Assembly: GCA_002897615.1 (NCBI GenBank)
Contig: BDTX01000003.1
Coordinates: forward strand, 214,833 to 278,832
DNA length: 64,000 bases
Reading direction: 5' to 3'
Source: a bacterium BMS3Bbin14
GTDB lineage: Bacteria > Desulfobacterota > Desulfobulbia > Desulfobulbales > Desulfobulbaceae
In this document: positions 51,676 through 64,000 of the stretch, piece by piece
Layout of the letters: the number at the start of each line of letters is the position of its first letter
Numbering within the stretch: position 1 is the first letter of the stretch
Made by a program: the position numbers and the translations under genes
The notes under the pieces: generated by a model
Database searches by the model: none
Told to the model about the DNA's origin: nothing
What the model saw: the letters and a program-made list of their open reading frames with translations, nothing else

Positions 51676-52590
51676 TTACTCTCCAAATGTACCAGAAATT
51701 TCAAGCGGATCTTCGGCATAGTCAAAGGCTGGGGCCGCACTATCGTATTGTTTGCAGCGGAGTTCGTACTGTTCGCGGTCGAGACGAGTGATATCGTCGG
51801 TTTCGCCATCCGCGCCGGTGTCAAGGCCGTGGTGGAAGGAAACTCCGCCGAGATCGGTCAGGATATAACGGTTGTGCAGCCGTTGACCGGCAGGTTTTTC
51901 TCTCCATTGGTAAATGGTTACTTGTATGCCGTCGGGAATGATTTTTTCATAAAAATTTTTCAGATAATCGATTGTGGCACCGTCCCCGTTGGTATGTATT
52001 TCGATCTTTCCCGGCGGCCCGACAGGTTTTTCCGCTTTAAGTATGTCCATGAAAGCCGTTAATGATCGTTTATGGCCAGATTTACACTGCGATAAATAAG
52101 GGTCTATGAACTTCACCCAGCGACAGCGGCCGAGCATCATCTTGATGGCGGCGGCCATATCCGGGGCTTTTCTGTTTACGGTAATGCCGTGGTGTACATC
52201 CCATTTTGCTATGTCCTCCCCGGCAAGATCGGTCTCGGTAAGGATATCTTGCTGCTCTTCCGGATTTGTCCGAGCCATGATCGTGTAAAAAGGGTGCCGT
52301 GCATGCTCCTGAAGGGCGTTTTCCAGCCAGCTCTCCAGCGCGTCGTCCCAGACGTAGTCCCTGCGCTTCACCATAGTTTCCTTCAGCCGCACCAGAAGTT
52401 CCTCCAGCCGTTTTCTGTCCACCTGGCTGGTACCGTCAAAGGAATCCCAGACCTTTTTAGCCCAGGTCTTGGGGTAACGGGAAACCACTCGTCCCTGGCC
52501 CAGGTCGAACTCACGGATGAAAAAGCGGTGGTTATGGCGGTCGCACCAGGCGGCCACCATTTCCGGTTCCAGGGCGTATTCGTAGATCAT
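51676..52590 (-). CDS. PLD-like (MIT_C-type) putative effector paired with a DUF3696 ATPase
   Basis: A 304-residue protein. The first 140 residues are unrecognised and rich in Trp/Arg. The C-terminal half resembles the phospholipase D-like fold seen at the C terminus of MIT proteins: RCRWVKFIDPYL (155-166), KIEIHTNG, then LHNRYILTDLGGVSFHHGLD with H239-N-R241 in place of HxK. The single H-x-R motif could serve nuclease or binding function by dimerisation. It starts one base inside the ATPase stop (TGATG), so the two are translationally coupled. A defence effector role is inferred from this pairing. Confidence 0.7.
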   Translation of the reverse strand: MIYEYALEPEMVAAWCDRHNHRFFIREFDLGQGRVVSRYPKTWAKKVWDSFDGTSQVDRKRLEELLVRLKETMVKRRDYVWDDALESWLENALQEHARHPFYTIMARTNPEEQQDILTETDLAGEDIAKWDVHHGITVNRKAPDMAAAIKMMLGRCRWVKFIDPYLSQCKSGHKRSLTAFMDILKAEKPVGPPGKIEIHTNGDGATIDYLKNFYEKIIPDGIQVTIYQWREKPAGQRLHNRYILTDLGGVSFHHGLDTGADGETDDITRLDREQYELRCKQYDSAAPAFDYAEDPLEISGTFGE

Positions 52591-54275
52591 CAGAATAACT
52601 CCCCGGCTCGTTCAGCAAAAAAACCTTTTGGCCAGCGGTCAATGAAATCACCGTCCTCGTCCACCCGAATAGAGAAGCAGGAGATGCCGGCCTCACCCTG
52701 CTCAATGAAATAGATTGACAGCTCGTCCGGGGTCAAGGTCCGGTCTTTCGGAGCCTCGTTTTCGCCGGTTTCCCTGATCCGGCGCAGGAAACGCAGCATT
52801 AAATGTTCTGAATGGGTTTCAAGGATGAAGGTAAGATCAGGACATTTTCGCACCTGTTCGATGAAAAGATCTCCCAGGGCCACCTGAAAGGCGGGATGGA
52901 TATGCAGCTCCGGCTGCTCTATGGCCACCAGGCCGGTTTTCCGGTGCAGGGCGGCCACCACCACCGGCAGGACCTGGGAGATGCCGACGCCGATGTCCTG
53001 GGGCGCAAGTTCGATATCCCTGGCCTCGTCCCGGATCAAGAGGCGGCGCTTGACCGGCAGCGCAAGCAGGCTCTCGCTCAGGTCTATATCTTCATCAAGG
53101 ATGCGGCCCTGAAGCACGGCCAGCATGAGCGGGTTGTCGGTTTCCAGTTCCCGGTATTTCTTCACGTCCACGCTGTAGCCGGAATTGAGCCTCTCCTCCC
53201 GGGTCAGCCATTCGTTCACCCGGTCAATAAAGGCATCGTCGCTGAAAAACAGGGTGTCGTAGGCGGCCAGGCCATTGGCCCAGCGAGAATCTTCCGGTGA
53301 GGTGGCAGGCCTGTTGCTGCGCCTGGGGACCTCACGCAATGGTCCGAGGTAGCAGAAATTTCTGAGTCCTTCCCTGACACAGGCGCAAGGGCCGGCAATG
53401 AGGCTGCCAAGCAATAAGCTCAGGTTATAAGTGAAGTCAGCAAAGGCTTCTCTCTCCTCGACCACCCTTAATTTTTCCTTTTCGTCCTTTGAATTTCCGA
53501 CCGGAAACTCCTTTTCCGGAAAATTAAAAGAAATAGCGGCGTGTTCTGCAGGTAAGGCGGAGTCCAGACCGCCTGAAATGTCAACGGAATACAGCCCGGA
53601 GCCGTCAAATCCTTCCGTCAGCTCAAACCAGGCCCAGCAGAGTACCCCGACCTTGAACTGCGGTTCGTCATCGTCAGATTCATATACCTGAAACAAGGCC
53701 TCTTCAGCTTCTTCAGGCGTCACATCTTCCGGGAGAAAAACAGGGTTATAGGGATTGATGTCAAAACTCAACCCTTTCCCGTCTGGCGAGGACTTGATGA
53801 AGAGAAAGAAATGGCTGTTTACGTTAACCCTGTACATCTCGATATATGGTGTCTCCAGCCGCTCACTCCAGCGGACTGCAACCTCCACCTGCATAGTATT
53901 GATACGGGAAGGCACCTCGCTCATTTTCAGGCCCACGTTTCCAGGTGTATCTCGATCTCCAATGAACTGTGATTCGTCATGGTTGGGCAGATCTTCACGG
54001 GAGAGGTCAATATCCAGCATAATCCGGATGGGCAGTTTCAGGTCATGCCGGTGGACCAGGTTCTCGAAACCGCCCAGGTCGATGGTGTCGCCGCCGAGCA
54101 GGGTCCGGTCCGGGTTGAGGTTCTGCCGTTGAAAGATTTCGCGGGCGTAGTGCAGGGCCTGAAAGATGGTGGATTTGCCTGCCGAGTTGGGGCCGAAAAG
54201 CAGGGTAATGGGTTTGAGTTCCACCCGCACCGGCTCCTGGATGCCCTTGAAATTTTCGTAACCGTTCACCTGCAC
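52590..54275 (-). CDS. AAA/ABC-type ATPase with C-terminal DUF3696
   Basis: An OLD/SMC-like ATPase. Walker A FGPNSAGKST comes early, a long insertion follows, then an ABC-type signature region (DIGVGISQVLPVV), Walker B AIEQPELHIHP and the switch histidine in ETHSEH. DUF3696 ends it (IRVDEDGDFIDRWPKGFFAE). The ORF is open to 54419, but its first 48 codons cover a block of inverted repeats. Family proteins start near NFKGIQEPVRVELKPITLLFG, so GTG at 54275 or 54269 is more likely. It may sense a cue and control the PLD-like partner. Confidence 0.85.
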   Translation of the reverse strand: MQVNGYENFKGIQEPVRVELKPITLLFGPNSAGKSTIFQALHYAREIFQRQNLNPDRTLLGGDTIDLGGFENLVHRHDLKLPIRIMLDIDLSREDLPNHDESQFIGDRDTPGNVGLKMSEVPSRINTMQVEVAVRWSERLETPYIEMYRVNVNSHFFLFIKSSPDGKGLSFDINPYNPVFLPEDVTPEEAEEALFQVYESDDDEPQFKVGVLCWAWFELTEGFDGSGLYSVDISGGLDSALPAEHAAISFNFPEKEFPVGNSKDEKEKLRVVEEREAFADFTYNLSLLLGSLIAGPCACVREGLRNFCYLGPLREVPRRSNRPATSPEDSRWANGLAAYDTLFFSDDAFIDRVNEWLTREERLNSGYSVDVKKYRELETDNPLMLAVLQGRILDEDIDLSESLLALPVKRRLLIRDEARDIELAPQDIGVGISQVLPVVVAALHRKTGLVAIEQPELHIHPAFQVALGDLFIEQVRKCPDLTFILETHSEHLMLRFLRRIRETGENEAPKDRTLTPDELSIYFIEQGEAGISCFSIRVDEDGDFIDRWPKGFFAERAGELF

Positions 54276-54409
54276 CCCATCTTTGTCCGTTTCGCCCTCC
54301 TCAGGTACAGGGAGTACACCTCGGAGGGCGAAACGAACGAATCTGGGGCACATCTGAACGGTTACAGTTACGAGTTGAGGGTAGTTTATTGCCTCTGGTG
54401 AACGGTTAC
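54258..54409. repeat. Nested inverted repeats at the 5' end of the ATPase gene
   Basis: Outer arms GTAACCGTTCACC (54258-54270) and GGTGAACGGTTAC (54397-54409) are 13-bp exact complements. Inside, 54288-54300 (CGTTTCGCCCTCC) and 54323-54335 (GGAGGGCGAAACG) form a second perfect 13-bp stem with a 22-base loop. A third TGAACGGTTAC lies at 54355-54365. The block overlaps the proposed start region and could be a leader structure or an inserted palindromic element. Confidence 0.75.
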
Positions 54410-54520
54410 AAATTTTCAATAGTGATGGCTGTGATTGACATGGTGTTTTTCTTCAGATATGCCGTTTTTCTATTCCTTCATTTGAGGACTGTACAGGAAC
54501 AGCGCAGTGTCCGCGTTTGA

Positions 54521-54549
54521 TTGCAATAATTGCATGTGTCTTGTATAAT
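54521..54549 (+). promoter_or_regulatory. Strong sigma-70 promoter of the small Fic-partner gene, with palindrome
   Basis: TTGCAA (54521-54526), a 17-base spacer and the consensus TATAAT (54544-54549). TGCAAT-A-ATTGCA (54522-54534) is an inverted repeat that covers the -35 box, placed as an operator for autoregulation would be. Confidence 0.65.
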
Positions 54550-54586
54550 GTTTTTATTAATGTCAATCATGTACAGGCGGCAAACC

Positions 54587-54787
54587 ATGCGAAAAAAATC
54601 ACTTTTTGAAACCAATCCCCATCTCAGAGATTCTGTGAAATACAGAAATTCTCTGCTTGCCAATGTTTCCAGCTCAACCGCTATCGAAACCGGAGAAGCA
54701 GCTCAGGCCATTGCCGGGAAAATGGTTGCCTCCAAGGGCAGCATCTTTCATATTAGCCGCCAGGAGCGGAAGCAGAGTTCTCGATAA
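54587..54787 (+). CDS. Small putative antitoxin partner of the Fic protein
   Basis: A 66-residue protein starting MRKKSLFETNPHLRDSVKYR, with AGGCGG six bases before the ATG. Residues 28-36 read SSSTAIETG, which fits S-x3-E of the Fic inhibitory motif (S/T)xxxE(G/N), but has Thr in place of the final Gly/Asn. It is convergent with fic and overlaps its end by 35 bp. The antitoxin role is inferred from position and motif; it could also be a short fragment of a larger Fic-type N terminus. Confidence 0.6.
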   Translation: MRKKSLFETNPHLRDSVKYRNSLLANVSSSTAIETGEAAQAIAGKMVASKGSIFHISRQERKQSSR

Positions 54788-55400
54788 CTTCAGAAAACAG
54801 CGTTTCCATGGGCTTGTAGTTCCGATCTAGACCCGCATGTACGGCCGCAAAATACTGCTCCTTTTGTTCGTTCATTGTGCTGAAATCCAGCAGCGGCAAT
54901 CCTGCCTGCAATGCCATCAACGTTGCCAGTACTCTGGAAACCCGTCCATTTCCTTCCCGAAATGGATGAATAAGAACCAATTCCGTATGAACCTCGGCTA
55001 TTGCCTCCACGACCTTTTTGTTATCTTCAAAAGTACAGGGGGTGGATTTTCTCAATTGCTCCTGTTCAAGCTGACCCATTAATTTTGAGACTTGGGCAGC
55101 CATGGCAAAGGTAAAGCCCCCTTTGCTGATATTCACCTGCCGATATTGCCCGGCCCATTGGTAGATTTTTCCCAGCCATATTTTATGGATAAGGCAAATA
55201 TCATCAGCCGTGAACCGATGCTCCCGGTCAAATTTACGCAGTATAGCATCCATGGCCACGGCCAAGGCATTTGCCTCCATGATATCCATGTCTTCCGGGT
55301 CAGTGACGCCCTGAAGATTACGCAATACCCTATCGCCGGAGCCCGGTTCAAATTGGGCCTCTTTCAGCCCGGAGACATTGTATCTTCCTTTGTTTTTCAC
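54753..55400 (-). CDS. Fic/DOC-family AMP-transferase-like protein
   Basis: A 215-residue Fic protein. The active-site motif HPFREGNGRVSR (145-156) fits HxFx(D/E)GNGRxxR, so adenylylation of a target is expected. The flap region near YRQVNISKGGFTFA is typical. I see no clear inhibitory (S/T)xxxE(G/N) helix in the protein itself, as expected for class I enzymes whose inhibitor is a separate antitoxin; the convergent small gene carries a near match. It stands between the ATPase/PLD pair and the E2-E1-JAB operon. Confidence 0.9.
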   Translation of the reverse strand: MKNKGRYNVSGLKEAQFEPGSGDRVLRNLQGVTDPEDMDIMEANALAVAMDAILRKFDREHRFTADDICLIHKIWLGKIYQWAGQYRQVNISKGGFTFAMAAQVSKLMGQLEQEQLRKSTPCTFEDNKKVVEAIAEVHTELVLIHPFREGNGRVSRVLATLMALQAGLPLLDFSTMNEQKEQYFAAVHAGLDRNYKPMETLFSEVIENSASAPGG

Positions 55401-55476: not shown

Positions 55477-57834
55477 TCAAGCTTCACTAACAATATTCAA
55501 AGGTAATTGTGTACATCGGCCAATTTTGTCATGGATTGTAATCGCATATTCCAGTGTCGGTGATAAGATTATCATTATGGGTTTGTCTATTCGATATTCG
55601 TTTTGGGCTGCTATCTCCGTTAAGCTTTTAATGTCAAGTCCGCTAGGTTCGTTGCCACCCGAAGGATGATAATGCCATTCACCTAGATAAAGGCCTTGTT
55701 CTCCAAATTCTTTGAAAGCAGTCAAAAGCTCTTTCTGGCAATATTCCTCATCCTTGTCGAATCGGGTTTTGGTTCTTACAGCATTCGGACCAGGCTTACT
55801 TGCTCTTAAAATTGTATACTCTCCGTTGACTTTCCTGTGTCCAATCAAAACCCCTCCTGTTTCGATATCACCAGATTCAGAGGCCTCCTTTTTTACAAAA
55901 TCCAAAACATTTTTTCGAATATCAACTTTTGTGTCTTCCATCCTCTGACATATACGGCAATTGGGGTGTGGAGGTATATTTCCTGTGCTTATCATTCCAT
56001 ATGTTGATGCTTCAAGAGTTATCCCTTCCAGTGACTCAGAACTCCATATCCAATGATTGTTGGCAGTATCCTTACCCTGAAGAAAATCAATGATAATCCT
56101 AGCAAAGATTCCAGAAATAATTTTCATGTCTGCAGCACTTGCAGGCCTTACCGGGTTATTGCACTCGTTTGTTATCACCGGCAAACTCTCATCCTCTTGG
56201 ATATTCAGGAAGACGGGATCTCCATCATTGAGATACTGCCCCAGGCAAGCTTTGCAAGCATCTGTTTGCGGAATAACCCTGAAAATGCGTGCCACTTTCC
56301 CACCTCGAAGAACCCTGCAGTAAAAAACAGTTCTTCCATGATCAACGGCCTGTTGGTTGAGGTAGGCCTCTATGCTATCGTCTGCTATTGAGGAAACCCC
56401 AATTGAATTTCCTGGAAAATAATCCTTAATTTCGGCAAAAAGAATGTTTAAGATTTTGTGGTCAATTTTTACAAATGGATTGTGAAGCACGAGATGTTCT
56501 TCCATTCCTATTGCTTTTGGGAAATTTGTTCTATTTATACCCAGGCTGTGCCTGACCACATTGTGTGCCCTTAAATTTTCTTTATCTACAAGCAGTATGC
56601 TTCCCACACCTGCCTTGTTCAGTGCGTCGGCTGTTTCAGAACCAAGAGCTCCGCAACCTATAACAGATATTGCCTTATCCTTTAAAAGTCCCCTCTCTGC
56701 CCTGCCCATATTTCGCATGTGGAAATAATCATCAGTGAAATACTCCTGATACACCGCTTGAATAGAGTAATCAAACAACCTCTGTTTCAGCTCTTCTTCG
56801 CCACTTGCAATTATTGGAGAACGGCCACCTTTGGTTAGCCTGAACATCTGCCAGTCCAAATCTCTAAATCTACCCGGGAATCTGAGACCAACGTAAATGA
56901 AATCATCCAGCCGTTTCAACTCTGGTTCCAACTTATTTACCAGTTCAGAGGTTCCTGTTTCCTCATCTCCGTCACCAATATATCGCGCAAGTTCAGTCAC
57001 ATTTGAAAAAGGTTCAGGCTCAGTAGAAATCTCCCACCAATATCCTTCAATCAAATCACCATCGCTTATCCTTTTGACCTTTTCCTGACTATTCTCTTCT
57101 AATATCAGCTGGTTGACATCGGGAATAGAGGTGAACAATACCAGCTGTTTATTCACATATATCTTTGGCGGAAGCGTGACACCTGCTTGGTTCTCACCAT
57201 ATAGCATCACACCCATATATGTTTTTTTGCAAATTTCATCGGGAAAGAAGTTTGCTGGGATAAGGCTAGATAGTCCCGCGTAGAACTTTCCTTGCACTAT
57301 CTCACTATCAAAGAACAGGTCGGGCAGAAGATATTCAATTTCGTAGGTTCTGTTTGCAAAATGATGAAACAATTCAACTTCGGCGCTGTCCTTGGGAATT
57401 CTTCCAGATAGCCAGATTCTTAATCTCTTTATTATGTCCTCGATAGGATATATCTCTGGAGTCTCGCCATGTAAGTCACCTGTTTCAACGAAACAAACAC
57501 TCCCGTCTTCGTTTTGGTGACGTCTATTGAAAAAACGGATATTGCTCCTCACGCGTTGCCTGATATCTTCAGGCGACAGCACCGAGTATTCAATTGCCGT
57601 TTCTTTGCTTATTTCATTTTCGAGAATATATATCGTTGGAGGAATGTATGGAGTGGCTTCAGGATAGACGATCAAAATCGGGAAATATTCTGTTTTGCTT
57701 TTATGAATTATAATGTTGCCACTGGATATAAGTGTTTCCTCTATCTCCTGATACTGTTCCCTGTAACTTGAATTACTTGAAAGCTGTTTGGTCTCTCTAT
57801 ATAACCAGCTAGTGTGACGAGCGAACCATTCCAT
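55477..57834 (-). CDS. E2-E1-JAB triple fusion (ubiquitin-like conjugation and deconjugation)
   Basis: A 785-residue protein with three modules. An E2-like N terminus (about 1-165: FPILIVYPEATPYIPPTIYI, then DGSVCF with candidate catalytic C114). A ThiF/E1 domain (about 385-620) with nucleotide loop GCGALGSETADAL (393-405), two zinc knuckles (C527/C530 and C626/C629) and candidate catalytic C558 in NECNNPVRPAS. A JAB/MPN protease (about 640-785) with E658 and H721-x-H723-x7-S731-x2-D734. It starts in the stop of the MBL gene (TGATG). The DNA is clearly more AT-rich than the core, suggesting transfer. Confidence 0.92.
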   Translation of the reverse strand: MEWFARHTSWLYRETKQLSSNSSYREQYQEIEETLISSGNIIIHKSKTEYFPILIVYPEATPYIPPTIYILENEISKETAIEYSVLSPEDIRQRVRSNIRFFNRRHQNEDGSVCFVETGDLHGETPEIYPIEDIIKRLRIWLSGRIPKDSAEVELFHHFANRTYEIEYLLPDLFFDSEIVQGKFYAGLSSLIPANFFPDEICKKTYMGVMLYGENQAGVTLPPKIYVNKQLVLFTSIPDVNQLILEENSQEKVKRISDGDLIEGYWWEISTEPEPFSNVTELARYIGDGDEETGTSELVNKLEPELKRLDDFIYVGLRFPGRFRDLDWQMFRLTKGGRSPIIASGEEELKQRLFDYSIQAVYQEYFTDDYFHMRNMGRAERGLLKDKAISVIGCGALGSETADALNKAGVGSILLVDKENLRAHNVVRHSLGINRTNFPKAIGMEEHLVLHNPFVKIDHKILNILFAEIKDYFPGNSIGVSSIADDSIEAYLNQQAVDHGRTVFYCRVLRGGKVARIFRVIPQTDACKACLGQYLNDGDPVFLNIQEDESLPVITNECNNPVRPASAADMKIISGIFARIIIDFLQGKDTANNHWIWSSESLEGITLEASTYGMISTGNIPPHPNCRICQRMEDTKVDIRKNVLDFVKKEASESGDIETGGVLIGHRKVNGEYTILRASKPGPNAVRTKTRFDKDEEYCQKELLTAFKEFGEQGLYLGEWHYHPSGGNEPSGLDIKSLTEIAAQNEYRIDKPIMIILSPTLEYAITIHDKIGRCTQLPLNIVSEA

Positions 57835-58898
57835 CAGGCACCCATTGGTTTTTTATCAATTTTCGTGACAGGCGGCGGGATTATTACCTTATTTCCCCCA
57901 TCATCTTTGCCGTCGTCCTGTTTGCCGTATGCCTTGACCAACTCATCGTCAGGATAAAGCTCTATCTCCCCAGCAGAGTCAATATCTACAATAATGCACT
58001 CTCTTTTCTCTCCTAGATGAAATACTTTGTCATCACCAACCTCTTCCTTATATAAATCCATGGCTTCCTTATGAGGATGATCGTGTTTGCTTTCCTTCTC
58101 TTTTGGAGCGCTGACTGTGATATAGGTCGGCTTAATTTTTTTAAGATGGTCCTTGTAAGGTTCTTCGTCCGTATCACCATCTTTCCAGAAAAAAGACTTT
58201 GACCCATGATGAGCAGCACTCAAAACCTTAGAAGGAAGCCTGTCCTTGTGGTAATCAGTGATATGGTCTTTCCATGCCGTATAGTCTGCATCACCTGTAA
58301 TTAATATCTGTTGCTCATCTTCACCGTACTTGAATCGAATTACACCGCATTGCTCATGAATCCTGGAATATCTGGTTTCAGGCTTCTCGTCTTCAATATC
58401 ATCGGATACATAGTCAGCTGGGGCCAATACGTTGTATTTTATGTCACCAAGAATTATTTCTTTTTCATCCAGTTTGTTCTCTTCTGTGCTACCTCGAAGA
58501 CGAAATACATTTTCTTCTCCAATTTTTTTGATTACATATTCCAAGTCGTCATAGCTTCCCCGATGCTCCTTCCCTGGTTTATGCCCTGAATGCCATAACT
58601 GACTGATACCGATCTGGTCATAAATGTCCCGAATCTTCCCAAGGTGGTCATTGTGAGGATGGGTGTTAATATAAATATCTAACTCAGAGTCTCCATCATC
58701 AAAGAGGTCTTTGAAAAGTTCAACAATATCTATCCCACCAGCAGCTTCATCATAATTTGAATCTATGAGCACATACTTGTATTCATCACCATCAGGGACC
58801 ACCAACAGTGTGGAATCTCCTTGCCCCGCATAAAGGAATATCGTTCGGAAAATGTTAGGCTCTGTTGGAATGATTACATCTTTTGCAGTGTTTGACAT
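57834..58898 (-). CDS. MBL-fold hydrolase with low-complexity tail ending Met-Gly-Ala
   Basis: A 354-residue metallo-beta-lactamase-fold protein of the ComEC-tail type. Metal ligands are in THPHNDHLG (HxHxDH), ITGDAD and SAAHHGS. After the domain comes a flexible tail of about 30 residues, rich in Asp/Gly/Lys/Pro (KQDDGKDDGGNK, PPPVTKIDKKPMGA). Upstream in-frame start codons are ignored, since GAGAGGGA precedes the ATG at 58898, which overlaps the patatin end by 25 bp. The stop is shared with the E2-E1-JAB start. Substrate unknown; nucleic acid or nucleotide is typical for this MBL group. Confidence 0.88.
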   Translation of the reverse strand: MSNTAKDVIIPTEPNIFRTIFLYAGQGDSTLLVVPDGDEYKYVLIDSNYDEAAGGIDIVELFKDLFDDGDSELDIYINTHPHNDHLGKIRDIYDQIGISQLWHSGHKPGKEHRGSYDDLEYVIKKIGEENVFRLRGSTEENKLDEKEIILGDIKYNVLAPADYVSDDIEDEKPETRYSRIHEQCGVIRFKYGEDEQQILITGDADYTAWKDHITDYHKDRLPSKVLSAAHHGSKSFFWKDGDTDEEPYKDHLKKIKPTYITVSAPKEKESKHDHPHKEAMDLYKEEVGDDKVFHLGEKRECIIVDIDSAGEIELYPDDELVKAYGKQDDGKDDGGNKVIIPPPVTKIDKKPMGA

Positions 58899-60064
58899 TT
58901 TATCCCTCTCTTTTTTTCGTTCGATAACAACCATGAAAATTTTTCGGCATCATAGTGAATAAATGAGGTCATTCTCTTGCAGTGCAATACCGCGCTACAA
59001 GTCTCGTATCCATGGCGAAATAACAATCTAAATTCCTCAACTGAAAGCTTCCGTAAGGTAGTATCAAATGAAGCTGCAGCAAAAACATCTTTGTTATTTA
59101 GGCACCTATCAGGATCAATTGTCTCTAATGGGATCTTTAGGTTTTGAAAAATTTTTTTTACTGATTCACCTATTCGAAGATATCCACCTGATTTGTTTTT
59201 CAGAAAAAAAGAAAAAAGATCCCTGGCCCTTAAACTCCTGACTTGATCTGTCGAAATATCAACAAGACGAAAATGTTTCGGAGATTTTGGGAGAGGAAAA
59301 TTATGTATCCATTTCTTCTCAACAACTTCCAGAGGTTTAGACGCGTCACTAACCAATAGAAAATCTATATCGGATCGTAGGCCAATTCCCGTTTTGTATA
59401 AGGCCTCAACGCCAAGATTGTCATAAACACCACCATCCCATAATGTAATACTTTTCCCTATGGCATTAATATCAACTAAGTCTTGACCTTTAAACTCCTT
59501 CCATCTGTATTTCTCGGTTCGTATTTTCAGGGGGCCTATCAATCCAGGGACCGCTGCGGAGGAAGCCACAGCATCTGAAAGAGGATAGTCAGGAGAAGGA
59601 ACATAGTGTGCCAAGTGGCCACCCATTCTTTTTGCCGAAAATCTCCAGTTTTTACCCGTCTCATAGCAGGTTGAATTTATGGTCCAGCGCGGTTGCATGG
59701 GCATCTCTGAAACCGAAGAAGTTACACCCCAATGTTTTTTTATGAGCATGCCAATCAAATGCGCTCTCCCTTGAAAAAGGCGCCATGGCTTGATGAAAAT
59801 ATCTAACAAGTATGCCCTTTGCAGATTAAAAGTCGTTAATGTTTTAAATATAGGCGGGAGACACTCCGTAAAAAATGCTTCCTTTGTTGGCCATTTTTTG
59901 CTTCCTTTCTCAAAGATTAAAGCAGCACAAAGACTTCCTCCAGAAACAGTGGAAATATGCACGAGATCATCCCAAAGTCCAGCCTCGGCTAATCGCGTCA
60001 AAAAGCCTAGATGAAATACTGTTGCGCGGACACCACCGCCAGATAATGTGATTCCTAATTTCAT
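58874..60064 (-). CDS. Patatin-like phospholipase
   Basis: A 396-residue lipid acyl hydrolase. The oxyanion loop GGGVR is at 9-13 and the nucleophile elbow STVSGGS has Ser41 (the first Gly of GxSxG is Thr). The dyad aspartate sits in LWDGGVYDN. Residues 1-7 (MKLGITL) are the usual first strand; the in-frame codons upstream to 60100 lie inside the MBL gene and are excluded. It begins 5 bp after the upstream MBL gene and runs into the next. In CBASS, patatins (CapV) are membrane-attacking effectors; the same is proposed here by analogy. Confidence 0.9.
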   Translation of the reverse strand: MKLGITLSGGGVRATVFHLGFLTRLAEAGLWDDLVHISTVSGGSLCAALIFEKGSKKWPTKEAFFTECLPPIFKTLTTFNLQRAYLLDIFIKPWRLFQGRAHLIGMLIKKHWGVTSSVSEMPMQPRWTINSTCYETGKNWRFSAKRMGGHLAHYVPSPDYPLSDAVASSAAVPGLIGPLKIRTEKYRWKEFKGQDLVDINAIGKSITLWDGGVYDNLGVEALYKTGIGLRSDIDFLLVSDASKPLEVVEKKWIHNFPLPKSPKHFRLVDISTDQVRSLRARDLFSFFLKNKSGGYLRIGESVKKIFQNLKIPLETIDPDRCLNNKDVFAAASFDTTLRKLSVEEFRLLFRHGYETCSAVLHCKRMTSFIHYDAEKFSWLLSNEKKRGIKCQTLQKM

Positions 60065-60068
60065 ATTC

Positions 60069-60902
60069 TTATATTGTGCTATAGGATGCCTTGCCATCAC
60101 TATGAACTGAGAATTGAATTCGCCCCGATGTTTTGGTAGATAAAAATTTAGTCATCTTGCCATCTAACAGCAGGCTTTGGGGGTTATCTCTGAATTTTGA
60201 GTCTGTGGGTTCTTTCCCATATTTGTCGCTTATCAGCACTAAATGAGGGTTAACGGTATCCATCATTTCCTTACAGTAACCAGATGATCTTCCATGATGC
60301 GGAGCAACCAGTATTATGTATTCAGCAGCATCAAGTAATGGTTGGAAATCCTTTTTCGCTTGCGGCCATAATTCGTTCCAGCCAGCTTCTTCAACGTCTC
60401 CAGGGCAGACAAATAACCAACCAGCATAGGAATAAAACATTACGATAGAAGTATTATTTATTCCGATTCCATCTCTCCAGCTCAGGTTGTCCGCTTTAAC
60501 AGTTACGCCGCCGTTATAATCAGGGTTGCGAGGATTCTTTTCCCATGCGGGGGTGTGGGTATAGTCTTTGTCAAGCTGCTTAAATATTTTTTGATATTCA
60601 AGTGTCCCTTCTCCATATTTCTCTCTATCTGGAAGGGATGAATTCCTGCGTAAAGTTTTTGGTCTGCCAAGGTGCTTGATTATGTTGGGCAAGTTATGCA
60701 GGTGATCTGAATCGGGGTGACTGATAATTAGGTAATCCAACTCATCGACACCATAGTTATTCTTCACGTGTGCCGCAGGGCAAAAATCAGTATCATTATT
60801 TTTGCCTGCATCTATCCAATGGTTCTGCCCGTTAGGTGTGCTGATCCATATCGACAACCCATGCCCCACATCCCAAAGGGTGAACATCATCTTATTTTCC
60901 AT
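60069..60902 (-). CDS. Second MBL-fold hydrolase (ComEC-tail-like)
   Basis: About 277 residues. The opening MMFTLWDVGHGLSIWI is typical of ComEC-like MBL domains; ligands are in SHPDSDHL (HxDxDH), VCPGDVEEAGW and APHHGRSS. It differs from the other MBL protein in the metal motif (Asp for the second His) and in lacking the long tail. The start may be ATG 60902 or 60890; a TTG at 60932 is also in frame. It follows hsdS by about 40 bp and precedes the patatin by 4 bp. Role unknown. Confidence 0.83.
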   Translation of the reverse strand: MENKMMFTLWDVGHGLSIWISTPNGQNHWIDAGKNNDTDFCPAAHVKNNYGVDELDYLIISHPDSDHLHNLPNIIKHLGRPKTLRRNSSLPDREKYGEGTLEYQKIFKQLDKDYTHTPAWEKNPRNPDYNGGVTVKADNLSWRDGIGINNTSIVMFYSYAGWLFVCPGDVEEAGWNELWPQAKKDFQPLLDAAEYIILVAPHHGRSSGYCKEMMDTVNPHLVLISDKYGKEPTDSKFRDNPQSLLLDGKMTKFLSTKTSGRIQFSVHSDGKASYSTI

Positions 60903-60940: not shown

Positions 60941-62119
60941 TTAGCCTCCTCGAAAGGCGCGTTGGGTAAGGGATTTGAAGAGTAGCTCTGTCCCCTCACC
61001 TTTAGAAATAAGTTTATTTTTCAAATCAATAATTTTGGATAAAAACAAGGAGAACTTTATTTGCAAATCATTATCGGGAATTTCTATTTCTTGCTCCATC
61101 AATCTCCCTTTTGAAATATTAGGCATTGAGCCCGCAGCTCCTCCTGCAAGGCCTTGAATTTGTTTTCTCTTTCCTGCATGAGTTAATAATGCCCATAAGT
61201 AAGCAGGAGTCACTGTTTTTGGGTCCTTGATTCTCAACCTAAAAATCAAGTCGGAAAGTAACAATTTAGAACGAGTGGAGTGAACTAATGCACAAGCTGC
61301 AACCAAATCGTAAGTGTTTTTTCTTGTAAAAAGAAGATCGCCTTTTTGAACTTCTAATTCAGGTCTTGGAGATAAGTCAGAAGGAAGTGCTTTACTTTCT
61401 CTTTCTATGTAGCTGCAGGTAGTAACGGCACCAAGTTTTAGAACCCCCCACTCACCTTCAGATGGTTCACGATCATAGCACCTTGGACTCCACCCGCTGT
61501 CGATTCGCTCAAGAACATCTTTCAAGGGTAGAGTTTTCCACCCCTTGGGGTTGGTGACGGGGTCGCCGAACATGTCGAGGAAGGTGGCGCGGAGGAAGTC
61601 GTCGGCGAGTTTGATGGTGGCTTGCCGTTTGCGGCGGATGGCGTCGGCCTTGTCCAGAATGGCCGCAATCCGCCTTTGGGCGGATAAAGTGGGAAGTGGA
61701 ATTTCGAAAGTTAAAAGTGCACTCTTCGTTATTGCCTTGAATGTGCTGCCAGTACCAAGCTGTGCAAGACTTCTCTCCATGAACCGAAAGTAATGAAGGA
61801 GAAATTTATGGGAAACTTTTTCCGATGCACGGATGGCGTACAACCCCCTACCAATACAGCATTTTTCATTGGCCAAATTAGTCGGACCAACAGGCGCCCT
61901 GACCGACAGTAAAATATCATTAGTCTCGGCTGTTTTTATCGGGCGAAAACACCAGACTCTTGGCTCAGGGTACAGCTCTCCAAAATCAGCCTTCCCCTGG
62001 TAAAAAGGCAACCCCTCACCGTTATTATTATAGTCGCGGGAAGGAGGAGATTGACCGGCAATCAACTGGCAGATCTCACCCAACGGTACACTGTCAAATT
62101 TTGATTTCCAACTTCCCAC
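60941..62119 (-). CDS. hsdS: Type I restriction-modification specificity subunit
   Basis: A 392-residue DNA-recognition subunit with two target-recognition domains. TRD1 opens with KFDSVPLGEICQLIAGQSPP and closes with IPLPTLSAQRRIAAILDKADAIRRKR (a conserved helix). TRD2 spans GWKTLPLKDVLERIDSG to the C-terminal helix LFKSLTQRAFRGG. The start is GTG with GAGG upstream, two bases after the four-helix gene. The TRDs are more AT-rich than hsdM, common for these swapped domains. Confidence 0.92.
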   Translation of the reverse strand: MGSWKSKFDSVPLGEICQLIAGQSPPSRDYNNNGEGLPFYQGKADFGELYPEPRVWCFRPIKTAETNDILLSVRAPVGPTNLANEKCCIGRGLYAIRASEKVSHKFLLHYFRFMERSLAQLGTGSTFKAITKSALLTFEIPLPTLSAQRRIAAILDKADAIRRKRQATIKLADDFLRATFLDMFGDPVTNPKGWKTLPLKDVLERIDSGWSPRCYDREPSEGEWGVLKLGAVTTCSYIERESKALPSDLSPRPELEVQKGDLLFTRKNTYDLVAACALVHSTRSKLLLSDLIFRLRIKDPKTVTPAYLWALLTHAGKRKQIQGLAGGAAGSMPNISKGRLMEQEIEIPDNDLQIKFSLFLSKIIDLKNKLISKGEGTELLFKSLTQRAFRGG

Positions 62120-62121
62120 TT

Positions 62122-62520
62122 TTATTTCCTCTTTTTTGCTGTTCGTCCTGCAGCCGTCAGTATGGCGGTCAATTCTTTAGCTTCCTGCAATAGGGGCTCA
62201 AGTTTTGCTTTACCCATTACCCCGCTTTGAATCAACAGTTCCAACCAGTAGCATGTTTCATCAGCCTCTTCTTCGGCAATGCCCAACTTGGCAATAAACT
62301 CCGCTTTGGAACGACCTCGACAGGCGGATCTGTAGTTGGCCCCCACCGAAGTGGCAGAGCGTAATACCTGTTTCCCGATCACATCGGCTTCACGGTTGCG
62401 TGGCAGGGCTTGAGTCATCCGAATAACCCGAAGAGCAAAGGCCTGTGTTCTGTCCTTCAACTCCTGGGGATGTCCCTTTTCGCCATTTTCGACTTTCGCC
62501 TTTTCACTTCCCACTTTCAA
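62122..62520 (-). CDS. Four-helix-bundle protein (23S rRNA-IVP type) inside the hsd operon
   Basis: A 132-residue helical protein. The blocks [45 protein letters not shown] and [14 protein letters not shown] are the signature of the S23/four-helix family. Such genes are often found between hsdM and hsdS, where their function is unknown. The start is probably TTG 62520 (GGGGGA close upstream), overlapping the hsdM end by 17 bp, or GTG 62514. Confidence 0.85.
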
Positions 62521-64000
62521 TCATCCCCCGCAGCTCTTCCATGTCCGCCAGGATCTCCTTCTCCAACGCCATCATCCGGTCCAGAATCTCCTGGGGCGGG
62601 TCATACTCCTCCTCTTCATAAACGATCTCCTTGTAGCGGTTGATGGAGAGATCATATTTGTTCTTTCTGATCTCCTCTGCCAGGACAAAGAAATGTTTCT
62701 GGGTTTTATCGGTGTCCTTTTCCGGATCACGGTTCCGCCAACGTTTCAACATATCGGGCAGGTCGTCAGCGGCGATCTTGTCGCGCTTGTCGTCCAGGGA
62801 AAAGCCGTCCGCCTGGACATCGTAATAGAAAACCTGATCTGTACGGCCGCCCTTGGTAAAGACAATAATGGCGGTGGATACCCCTGCATAGGGCTTGAAC
62901 ACGCCGGAAGGCAGCGAAATCACCGCTTCGAGCTGGTTGTCATCCACCAGCATCTCTCGTAAGGCCCGGTGGGCCTTGGAGGAACCGAACAGGACGCCGT
63001 CCGGGACAATGGTGGCGGAACGGCCGCCCAGTTTAAGCATTTTCAGGATCAGGGTGACAAAAAGAAGTTCTGTCTTTTTGGTTTTGACCTTGGCTAAAAG
63101 GCTGGGGTGGACATCGTCGTAATCGAGACTACCCTTGAACGGCGGATTAGCCAGGATGCAGTCAAAAAAATCCTCGGAGGCCCGGGGAAAATTATCCGGG
63201 AAGGTATTGGACAGGGTATCCTGGTAATGGATATCCGGGGCGTCAATACCGTGCAGGAGCAGGTTCATGGCTGAGATCCGCAGCATGGTGATATCAAAAT
63301 CAAAACCGTGGAACATATCATTTCGGATGTGGTCCCAGTGGCCTTCCAACTGGTCACCGGGGTAGATTTTCTGCTCTTCACCATCAATGGTGAGGGTCTC
63401 CACCAGTTCCGGGCTGGTGTTTTCCCTGAGTAAATAGTGCATGGTCTCGATCAAAAAACCGGCTGTACCACAGGCCGGGTCTGCCACTAGTTCGGTGGGT
63501 TTGGGGGCCACGATCTCCACCATCTTGCGGATAATATGGCGGGGGGTGCGGAACTGGCCGTTAATGCCGGCGGTGGTCAGTTTGCCCAACAGGTATTCAT
63601 AGAGATCACCCTTGGTATCGCCCTTGGTCAGGGGCAGGTCGTTGATCATGGAGACGGCGGAATCAAGTAGAGATGGTTTCTGGATCAGGAGCTGGGCATC
63701 CTTCATATATTCGCCGAATGTGGCGCCTTCCAGGGCTGCGTTTTTGAAATGGGGGAATATCCGGTCCCGGACCAGGACCAGCATATCAGCCGGAGGCGTG
63801 TGCTGGAACCTTGACCAGCGCAGATCCTGATCCTTATCGCTGAAAATACGTTTAAAGGGTTTCTTGGTCCGTTTGGCCCGTTTTTCGTTTCGGGTCTCCT
63901 TGATATCCAGGAGCCTGGCAAACATAAGAAAGGAGATCTGTTCAATGACCGACAGGGGATTGGTGATGCCGCCGGTCCAGAATTCTTCCCAGAGTTTGTC
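62504..64000 (-). CDS. hsdM: Type I restriction-modification methyltransferase subunit (5' end outside window)
   Basis: The frame is open to the right edge; the first visible residues read [20 protein letters not shown], the usual HsdM N-terminal helix, so only a short N terminus is missing. The SAM-binding [10 protein letters not shown] and the N6-adenine catalytic NPPF are present, plus the C-terminal helical region ([21 protein letters not shown]). It methylates adenine at the HsdS-defined site. No hsdR is in the window. Confidence 0.94.

Follow-up and report, generated by a model that had tools for sequence, protein, structure and literature searches.

A divergent type 6a operon whose glycine-tailed metallo-beta-lactamase is a candidate modifier and whose partner gene is exchangeable

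The subject of this study is a stretch of 64,000 nucleotides from the Desulfobulbaceae bacterium BMS3Bbin14 (GenBank assembly GCA_002897615.1, contig BDTX01000003.1, positions 214,833 to 278,832; hereafter the window). On its minus strand, genes for a protein of the metallo-beta-lactamase (MBL) fold (MBL1), a patatin-like phospholipase and a second MBL protein (MBL2) are followed in one line by an intact gene for a fusion of E2, E1 and JAB modules, all four open reading frames (ORFs) being present. The core of this system is MBL2 together with the fusion; MBL1 and the patatin stand outside that unit. MBL2 ends in a conserved tail carrying a glycine, and in related loci the place of the patatin is mostly taken by a protein with four predicted transmembrane segments (4-TM protein). 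We lean towards reading the locus, from its sequence, as a divergent type 6a operon in which MBL2 would be a ubiquitin-like modifier whose conjugation triggers an interchangeable predicted membrane effector, here the patatin.

A divergent relative of type 6a

Type 6a, as described by Iyer et al. in 2006, comprises E2, E1 and JAB in one polypeptide beside a metallo-beta-lactamase gene and has a sporadic spread; as far as its accessible part goes, that description presents usually two genes and names no modifier, membrane partner or MBL tail (PMC1779556). The window matches it in the order of the modules on one polypeptide and in the adjoining MBL gene, and adds the patatin and a second MBL. The original prediction had noted that fused forms occur in comparative surveys, and had missed that the arrangement beside an MBL gene was already in this 2006 description. 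The NCBIfam models 'anti-phage 6A-MBL' (NF058523, NF058524) are the best NCBIfam match of both core proteins, at scores far under their cut-offs (131.2 of 320 bits for the fusion, model cap2_3, and 58.6 of 220 for MBL2). The pairs of the relatives L003, L005 and L010 (L designates loci) also score below both cut-offs, while that of L107 passes both, and we therefore place the window in a divergent clade of type 6a.

In the fusion, Pfam recognizes ThiF and Prok-JAB, and none of its E2 models matched. The E2 module is assigned because H106 and C114 are invariant in a 54-row alignment and because the whole chain matches the fold of Cap2: the AlphaFold2 (AF2) model has a mean predicted local distance difference test score (pLDDT) of 88.2, and its top Foldseek match is Cap2-CdnD02 (7to3, E 7.0e-19). 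The VIA matches all fall on the E1 domain, E2 and JAB not being covered singly, and Cap2 is not among the VIA matches listed. The same alignment shows C558, the CxxC pairs 527/530 and 626/629, E658, H721, H723 and S731 to be invariant and D734 of JAB to be conserved in at least 90% of rows, which bears out the earlier claim of a triple enzyme with intact catalytic residues. Elsewhere in the same genome, a piece of 45 residues with 93% identity to the JAB module and with a stop lies at a contig end (G000:C10:22090-22224; L002, L111); it is either what is left of a second copy or an assembly edge.

A genome scan returned 24 fusion loci from several phyla, with MBL2 directly upstream in 21; the other three are partial fusions (L018, residues 272-785; L022, 511-781; L025, 503-785). 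Since the adjacency recurs so often and so widely, it is more than chance. Four plasmid loci, two of them from one species, carry the pair as well. The four genes had been taken for one conserved system in the original prediction. This has to be abandoned, as the order MBL1-patatin-MBL2-fusion is found in none of the 33 loci besides the window. Recurring fusions without the MBL and patatin genes, which the original prediction had named as a refuting result, do occur as regards the patatin and MBL1, but among the fetched loci there is no full-length fusion without MBL2. Two pairs of listed proteins are possible close kin: patatin P0242 (83%) with MBL2 P0122 (86%), both on contigs with a listed length of 3543, and P0253 (patatin, 59%) with P0045 (fusion, 63%), both on contigs with one of 4925; a shared length is a proxy, not a proof.

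Among the matches listed, best E-values first, for 57 near genomes and 395 genomes of the phylum, a full-length fusion appears in the window's own genome only; the others are partial, ThiF-type or JAB, and canonical 6A fusions appear there as partial matches only. In two further sets the fusion is present in 1 of 15 and 4 of 390 genomes, starting genomes counted. No relative was found in viral_contigs, and phage records gave one weak match (27% identity, residues 374-585), so a phage-borne system was rejected; in PHROGs the core proteins match only unnamed or tail-protein families. Frameshifted or split fusion genes with their neighbours kept are seen in L021, L024 and L114, and the genes are perhaps costly and under turnover. 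Extra MBL-like genes without glycine tails (291, 496 and 457 amino acids) lie upstream of the core in two loci (L013:2362-6849 and L106:5877-7250).

A conserved glycine at the end of MBL2

The C-termini of MBL2 were read in the best 120 of 640 homologues. The pattern D-x-[KQ]-[PE]-[MFLS]-G followed by 0-4 residues accounts for 107 of them, and a strict DxKPMG followed by 0-3 residues for 102. In the 107 tails the glycine is the last residue in 36 and is followed by one residue in 62, by two in 8 and by three in 1; where a single residue follows, it varies (Ala in 12 tails, Val in 12, Ile in 10, other residues in fewer). The 13 non-matching sequences comprise five short forms of 295-328 amino acids without the tail region, two near-matches ending in KSMGD and KAMGM, one in which KTFG is extended, and P0205, P0212, P0219, P0235 and P0240, whose ends are different. 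Over an 80-row alignment, the relative entropy of the tail (residues 345-353) reaches 3.24 bits, compared with 2.90 for the core and 1.28 for the linker (325-343). The AF2 model gives a pLDDT below 50 to residues 329-354, which are thus predicted to be disordered.

The same picture is obtained at the loci themselves. Across the 26 core loci (21 genome loci, the four plasmid loci and the window), 25 of the MBL2 genes adjoining a fusion encode the tail or something close to it, with up to six residues past the glycine; Q replaces K in L014, L015, L019 and L114, E replaces P in L017 and S replaces M in L020, and the sole exception, L021, is a broken gene. None of the eight other MBLs found by profiles at the loci has it (a further row is a fragment of the broken L021 gene), and L158, found after the pattern was fixed, does. 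The canonical 6A MBLs, above the NCBIfam cut-off in 5 of the 395 phylum genomes, end in RAG, RAG, RHG, RWG and GFGL, with glycine last in four and followed by one residue in the fifth. Hence KPMG in the clade of the window contrasts with R-x-G in four of these five; moreover, the metal motif is HPH in the window MBL2 and HPD or HGD in the three canonical 6A MBLs examined.

The nearest fold of MBL2 is the MBL domain of ComEC, and Pfam finds no beta-grasp modifier among the ten genes scanned around the operon. The conserved end on a disordered tail, the fused JAB, the missing beta-grasp match and the precedent of Cap2 in the cyclic-oligonucleotide-based antiphage signalling system (CBASS) together mark MBL2 as the likely modifier, by analogy with the CD-NTases of type II CBASS. 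That it is conjugated at all appears quite probable from these features.

Some properties of the tail weigh against this. The 62 tails with exactly one residue past the glycine (Ala in 12) imply either that trimming is needed or that the rule is looser than thought. Conservation extends beyond the glycine, and docking peptides at C-termini can be conserved too. The tail could then be a docking peptide only, holding MBL2 on the fusion or on the partner, with the fusion conjugating another target or none: disordered conserved C-terminal motifs often dock, and most of T345 to G353 is conserved rather than the glycine alone. We consider this unlikely, since in the 107 matching tails no more than three residues, of varied identity, come after the glycine, since canonical 6A MBLs retain it without the KPM context, and since the enzyme carries a JAB hydrolase in the same chain.

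Either a 4-TM protein or a patatin beside the core

The loci were searched with profiles of the 4-TM protein (drawn from 11 of them), the patatin, MBL1, MBL2 and the fusion. Beside the core, the 4-TM gene is found in 19 of the 26 core loci, a patatin in five, neither in two (L013 and L015) and both in none. The chance of zero overlap is 0.0004 with one of two P. polymyxa plasmids dropped, a figure that is post hoc and ignores kinship. In L013 a patatin-type ORF about 5 kb off was left out of the count, and L015 has a small 3-TM protein. The name '4-TM' comes from hydropathy, individual proteins giving two to four segments, and the same reading finds no transmembrane segment in ten window proteins.

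The partner swap recurs on the MBL2 tree: on its 28 rows the patatin label changes five times, at least four of the changes being forced by well-supported branches. The row nearest to the window is L003 (support 94/80, under the starred level), which has a 4-TM gene as partner. Between the two, the sole DNA similarity in the compared stretch starts at the first base of MBL2 and extends over 1872 aligned columns (76.7%); upstream of this junction stand MBL1 and the patatin in the window and the 4-TM gene in L003.

Seven 4-TM proteins were scanned with PADLOC; Csx27 is matched by those of L003, L009, L008 and L014 (best E 2.3e-15), which also give weak matches to PDC-M48A. No Pfam model matches the 4-TM proteins scanned, and a sequence search of the PDB gave nothing significant for their profile (E 1.5, 1.8) and no match for the patatin. 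The five core-adjacent patatins all keep GGGxR, [TS][VI]SGG and DGG. Judging from these sequences, the common theme of 4-TM proteins and patatins is probably membrane attack; Csx28 has been reported as an inner-membrane pore in the part of that study consulted (PMC12669027). A partner likely to attack membranes in a defence-like setting, as originally proposed, finds support.

Several observations on the partners count against the favoured reading. L013 and L015 hold neither partner; partner and core are encoded on opposite strands in L006, L017 and L114; the match to the 4-TM profile is weak in L112 (E 9e-4) and in L115 (E 4e-5), and the 4-TM gene of L007 is split into two ORFs. Csx27 is matched by four of the seven membrane partners only, those of L007, L010 and L020 matching nothing in PADLOC. 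Finally, MBL1 sits between hsdS and the patatin, so that the patatin could belong to MBL1.

On that last reading, MBL1 and the patatin would be a separate two-gene module, resembling PDC-M48 but with a patatin instead of the 4-TM protein, and would have come to lie in front of an MBL2-fusion pair that had lost its membrane partner. MBL1 has ComEC-type sequence matches and no glycine tail, and is indeed PDC-M48B-like (PADLOC, E 2.6e-42). PDC-M48B matches also occur in 61 of the 395 phylum genomes, mostly in ComEC-sized frames, and have little bearing on MBL1. Of two short MBL1-like genes examined elsewhere, that of L146 pairs with a 4-TM gene, with no E2-E1-JAB within 14 kb, and that of L147 is not so paired. 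However, L004 and L005 have a patatin right after the fusion and no match to MBL1, their sequence covering about 470 bp on the upstream side of MBL2; a core accompanied by a 4-TM protein never has a patatin too, and the patatin and MBL2 genes overlap by 25 bp. We rate a separate module as unlikely, if anything a shade more so than docking. The case of L146 suggests, by analogy with the addition of Cap2/Cap3 to CBASS, that membrane effector and MBL may be the older pair, with conjugation added later.

Alternatively, the roles could be reversed: toxicity would come from MBL2, acting as a ComEC-type nuclease on phage or host DNA once it is freed or conjugated, and the membrane protein or patatin would be a sensor or anchor. 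The ComEC fold of MBL2 would suit this, as would HamM, a ComEC-like MBL nuclease that serves other defence systems as a switched DNase, according to the accessible part of its description (PMC12799240). But the catalytic motifs intact in all five adjacent patatins make these look like enzymes, not anchors, and we regard the reversal as improbable. Least plausible of all is the form of the original prediction in which the patatin itself is conjugated or deconjugated to control lipid hydrolysis directly, for which operon membership speaks, whereas the window patatin lacks a terminal glycine, an unrelated 4-TM protein can take its place, and only MBL2 is fixed beside the fusion.

A model of modifier and effector

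With MBL2 as modifier and the patatin as effector, the operon could work as follows. The fused JAB would remove the 0-6 residues that come after the tail glycine of MBL2, and the E1 module would adenylate the freed glycine, which would then travel via C558 and C114 to lysines in proteins of the host or the phage. Conjugation would license or localise MBL2, which might cut a phosphodiester, as its ComEC-type fold hints. The product or the conjugate would gate the patatin, the membrane would be broken and phage growth halted. JAB could also reverse conjugation, and MBL1 may be an accessory or a second trigger.

These steps do not carry equal weight. Control of MBL2 by conjugation seems reasonably probable; that its output triggers the patatin is proposed more tentatively, being nearly as probable as its opposite. 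From context alone, there is a good probability that the whole locus protects against phage. The earlier interpretation, of an anti-phage system in which conjugation or deconjugation controls a membrane-degrading effector, is supported in part; it had named no modifier, and the MBL2 tail now points to one.

Comparison with known systems

For type II CBASS, the accessible parts of two studies report that Cap2 conjugates the CD-NTase through a C-terminal Gly or Ala conserved in Cap2/Cap3 operons only (PMC10097602), and that a B. cereus cyclase is joined via its C-terminal Ala to PspA and freed by a Cap3 (PMC11153139). The window shares with these systems the Cap2 fold, the JAB and an exchangeable effector that can be a phospholipase (in CBASS, effectors such as CapV), and MBL2 would parallel the CD-NTase as an enzyme that serves as modifier through a Gly or Ala tail. 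It differs in having an MBL in place of the CD-NTase, in E2, E1 and JAB being one protein, and in that conjugation is here a prediction. MBL2, which is not a CD-NTase, has the conserved tail glycine, followed in the window by Ala. CBASS itself was discarded as an explanation: as the original prediction had stated, there is no CD-NTase, neither among the ten genes scanned with Pfam nor, by a SMODS search, in the window's own metagenome-assembled genome, which is 94% complete.

Bil and Bub systems encode their own ubiquitin-like protein. The E1/E2/JAB conjugation machinery is common to them and the window, and no ubiquitin-like protein was found by Pfam in ten genes of the window. In the PADLOC candidate system PDC-M48, the counterpart of MBL1 (PDC-M48B) has a 4-TM partner, PDC-M48A, which is absent from the window operon, the patatin occupying the slot. 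With the Csx27/Csx28 proteins of type VI-B the likeness lies in the 4-TM partner, which matches Csx27 in the four relatives named above and is lacking in the window operon. HamM is likewise a ComEC-like MBL under post-translational control, which is proteolytic there, according to the part of the report consulted (PMC12799240), and predicted to be conjugation here.

Among canonical 6A-MBL loci, three of five have a 4-TM neighbour. One canonical 6A fusion (L108:4876-8373), of 1165 amino acids, exceeds the others by about 400 and has no 4-TM match in its vicinity; its extra length is perhaps a fused effector.

The architecture has been known since 2006; what looks new here is the glycine tail of MBL2 and the swappable 4-TM or patatin partner. 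In the literature searched, preprints and most subscription papers lying outside its scope, we found neither the tail nor the slot swap; nor did we find, preprints again being outside that scope, the term '6A-MBL' or the work behind the NCBIfam name, in which such a modifier may already have been proposed. We think it fairly probable that a folded metallo-hydrolase, with neither a beta-grasp nor a cyclase, is the modifier of type 6a, matured by the built-in JAB and commanding swappable membrane effectors, Csx27-like or patatin, in a cyclase-free parallel of type II CBASS. If so, two unrelated enzyme folds, CD-NTase and MBL, act as modifiers for Cap2-type enzymes, 'enzyme as ubiquitin' would be a general rule of Cap2-family conjugation, and the effector slot would tie E2-E1-JAB systems to Csx27-like membrane proteins and phospholipases. 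The MBL2 tail would then be a concrete answer to what the E1-E2 enzyme of type 6a conjugates, a question left by the 2006 description.

Operon and neighbourhood

The features of the operon are collected in Table 1. MBL1 and patatin genes are separated by 4 bp, and MBL2 and fusion genes overlap by 1 bp; with the 25-bp overlap given above, this spacing of four minus-strand genes agrees with the original prediction as checked from the ORFs. The starts of MBL2 and the patatin were set by homologue lengths and that of MBL1 was kept as in the first reading. Pfam assigns the lipase to Patatin and both MBLs to Lactamase_B, MBL1 marginally (22.8 bits against a cut-off of 22.7).

Table 1. Coordinates of the operon features in the window
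Feature	Position	Strand	Remarks
MBL1	60069..60902	-	second ComEC-type MBL, HPDSDH motif, PDC-M48B-like, no glycine tail; accessory (proposed)
Patatin-like phospholipase, interchangeable partner slot	58874..60064	-	GGGVR oxyanion loop, TVSGG nucleophile, DGG dyad
MBL2, ComEC-type metallo-hydrolase fold, 354 aa, HPHNDH metal motif, proposed modifier	57834..58898	-	
MBL2 variable linker, residues 325-344	57867..57926	-	predicted disordered from 329 on
MBL2 conserved tail TKIDKKPMG, residues 345-353	57840..57866	-	G353 codon 57840-57842, then one Ala
E2-E1-JAB triple fusion, 785 aa	55477..57834	-	Pfam, 54-row alignment, AF2, Foldseek
E2-like module, about residues 1-160, H106 and C114 (C114 codon 57493-57495)	57355..57834	-	boundaries approximate
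E1/ThiF module, about residues 365-632, putative thioester C558 (codon 56161-56163), CxxC 527/530 and 626/629	55939..56742	-	
JAB module, about residues 635-768; E658, H721, H723, S731, D734	55531..55932	-	PDB profile match 9ild (E 8.2e-17, residues 631-735) and alignment
Swap junction	58898	-	DNA similarity to L003 begins at MBL2 start codon

Upstream and in the same direction (60941-63925) lie hsdM, a gene for a helical protein of the S23/IVP type and hsdS, so that type I restriction-modification (RM) genes adjoin the operon; an HsdR N-terminal match is found only on another contig of the same genome (G000:C22). The end of the window is the end of the contig. Downstream (51676-55400), the operon is followed by genes for a Fic protein (PDC-S04, E 1.7e-77), for an AAA_21/DUF3696 ATPase and for a protein of 304 aa whose only match is a weak one to BrxL; this is likely a defence island. 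A sigma-70 scan gave fewer promoter-like sites than shuffled sequences (8 versus 15.9) and was not used.

Around the relatives, ten large neighbour ORFs, chosen by size at seven loci and without a random control, were searched with PADLOC, and seven match: type III RM in L008, type IIG RM with a weak CARF in L016, PDC-S66 in L020, PDC-M43B in L012 and Upx in L015. Those of L006 and L013 and one of those in L020 have no match. Back in the window, two neighbouring proteins end in di-glycines, Fic (54753-55400) in SAPGG and HsdS (60941-62119) in FRGG, possibly by chance.

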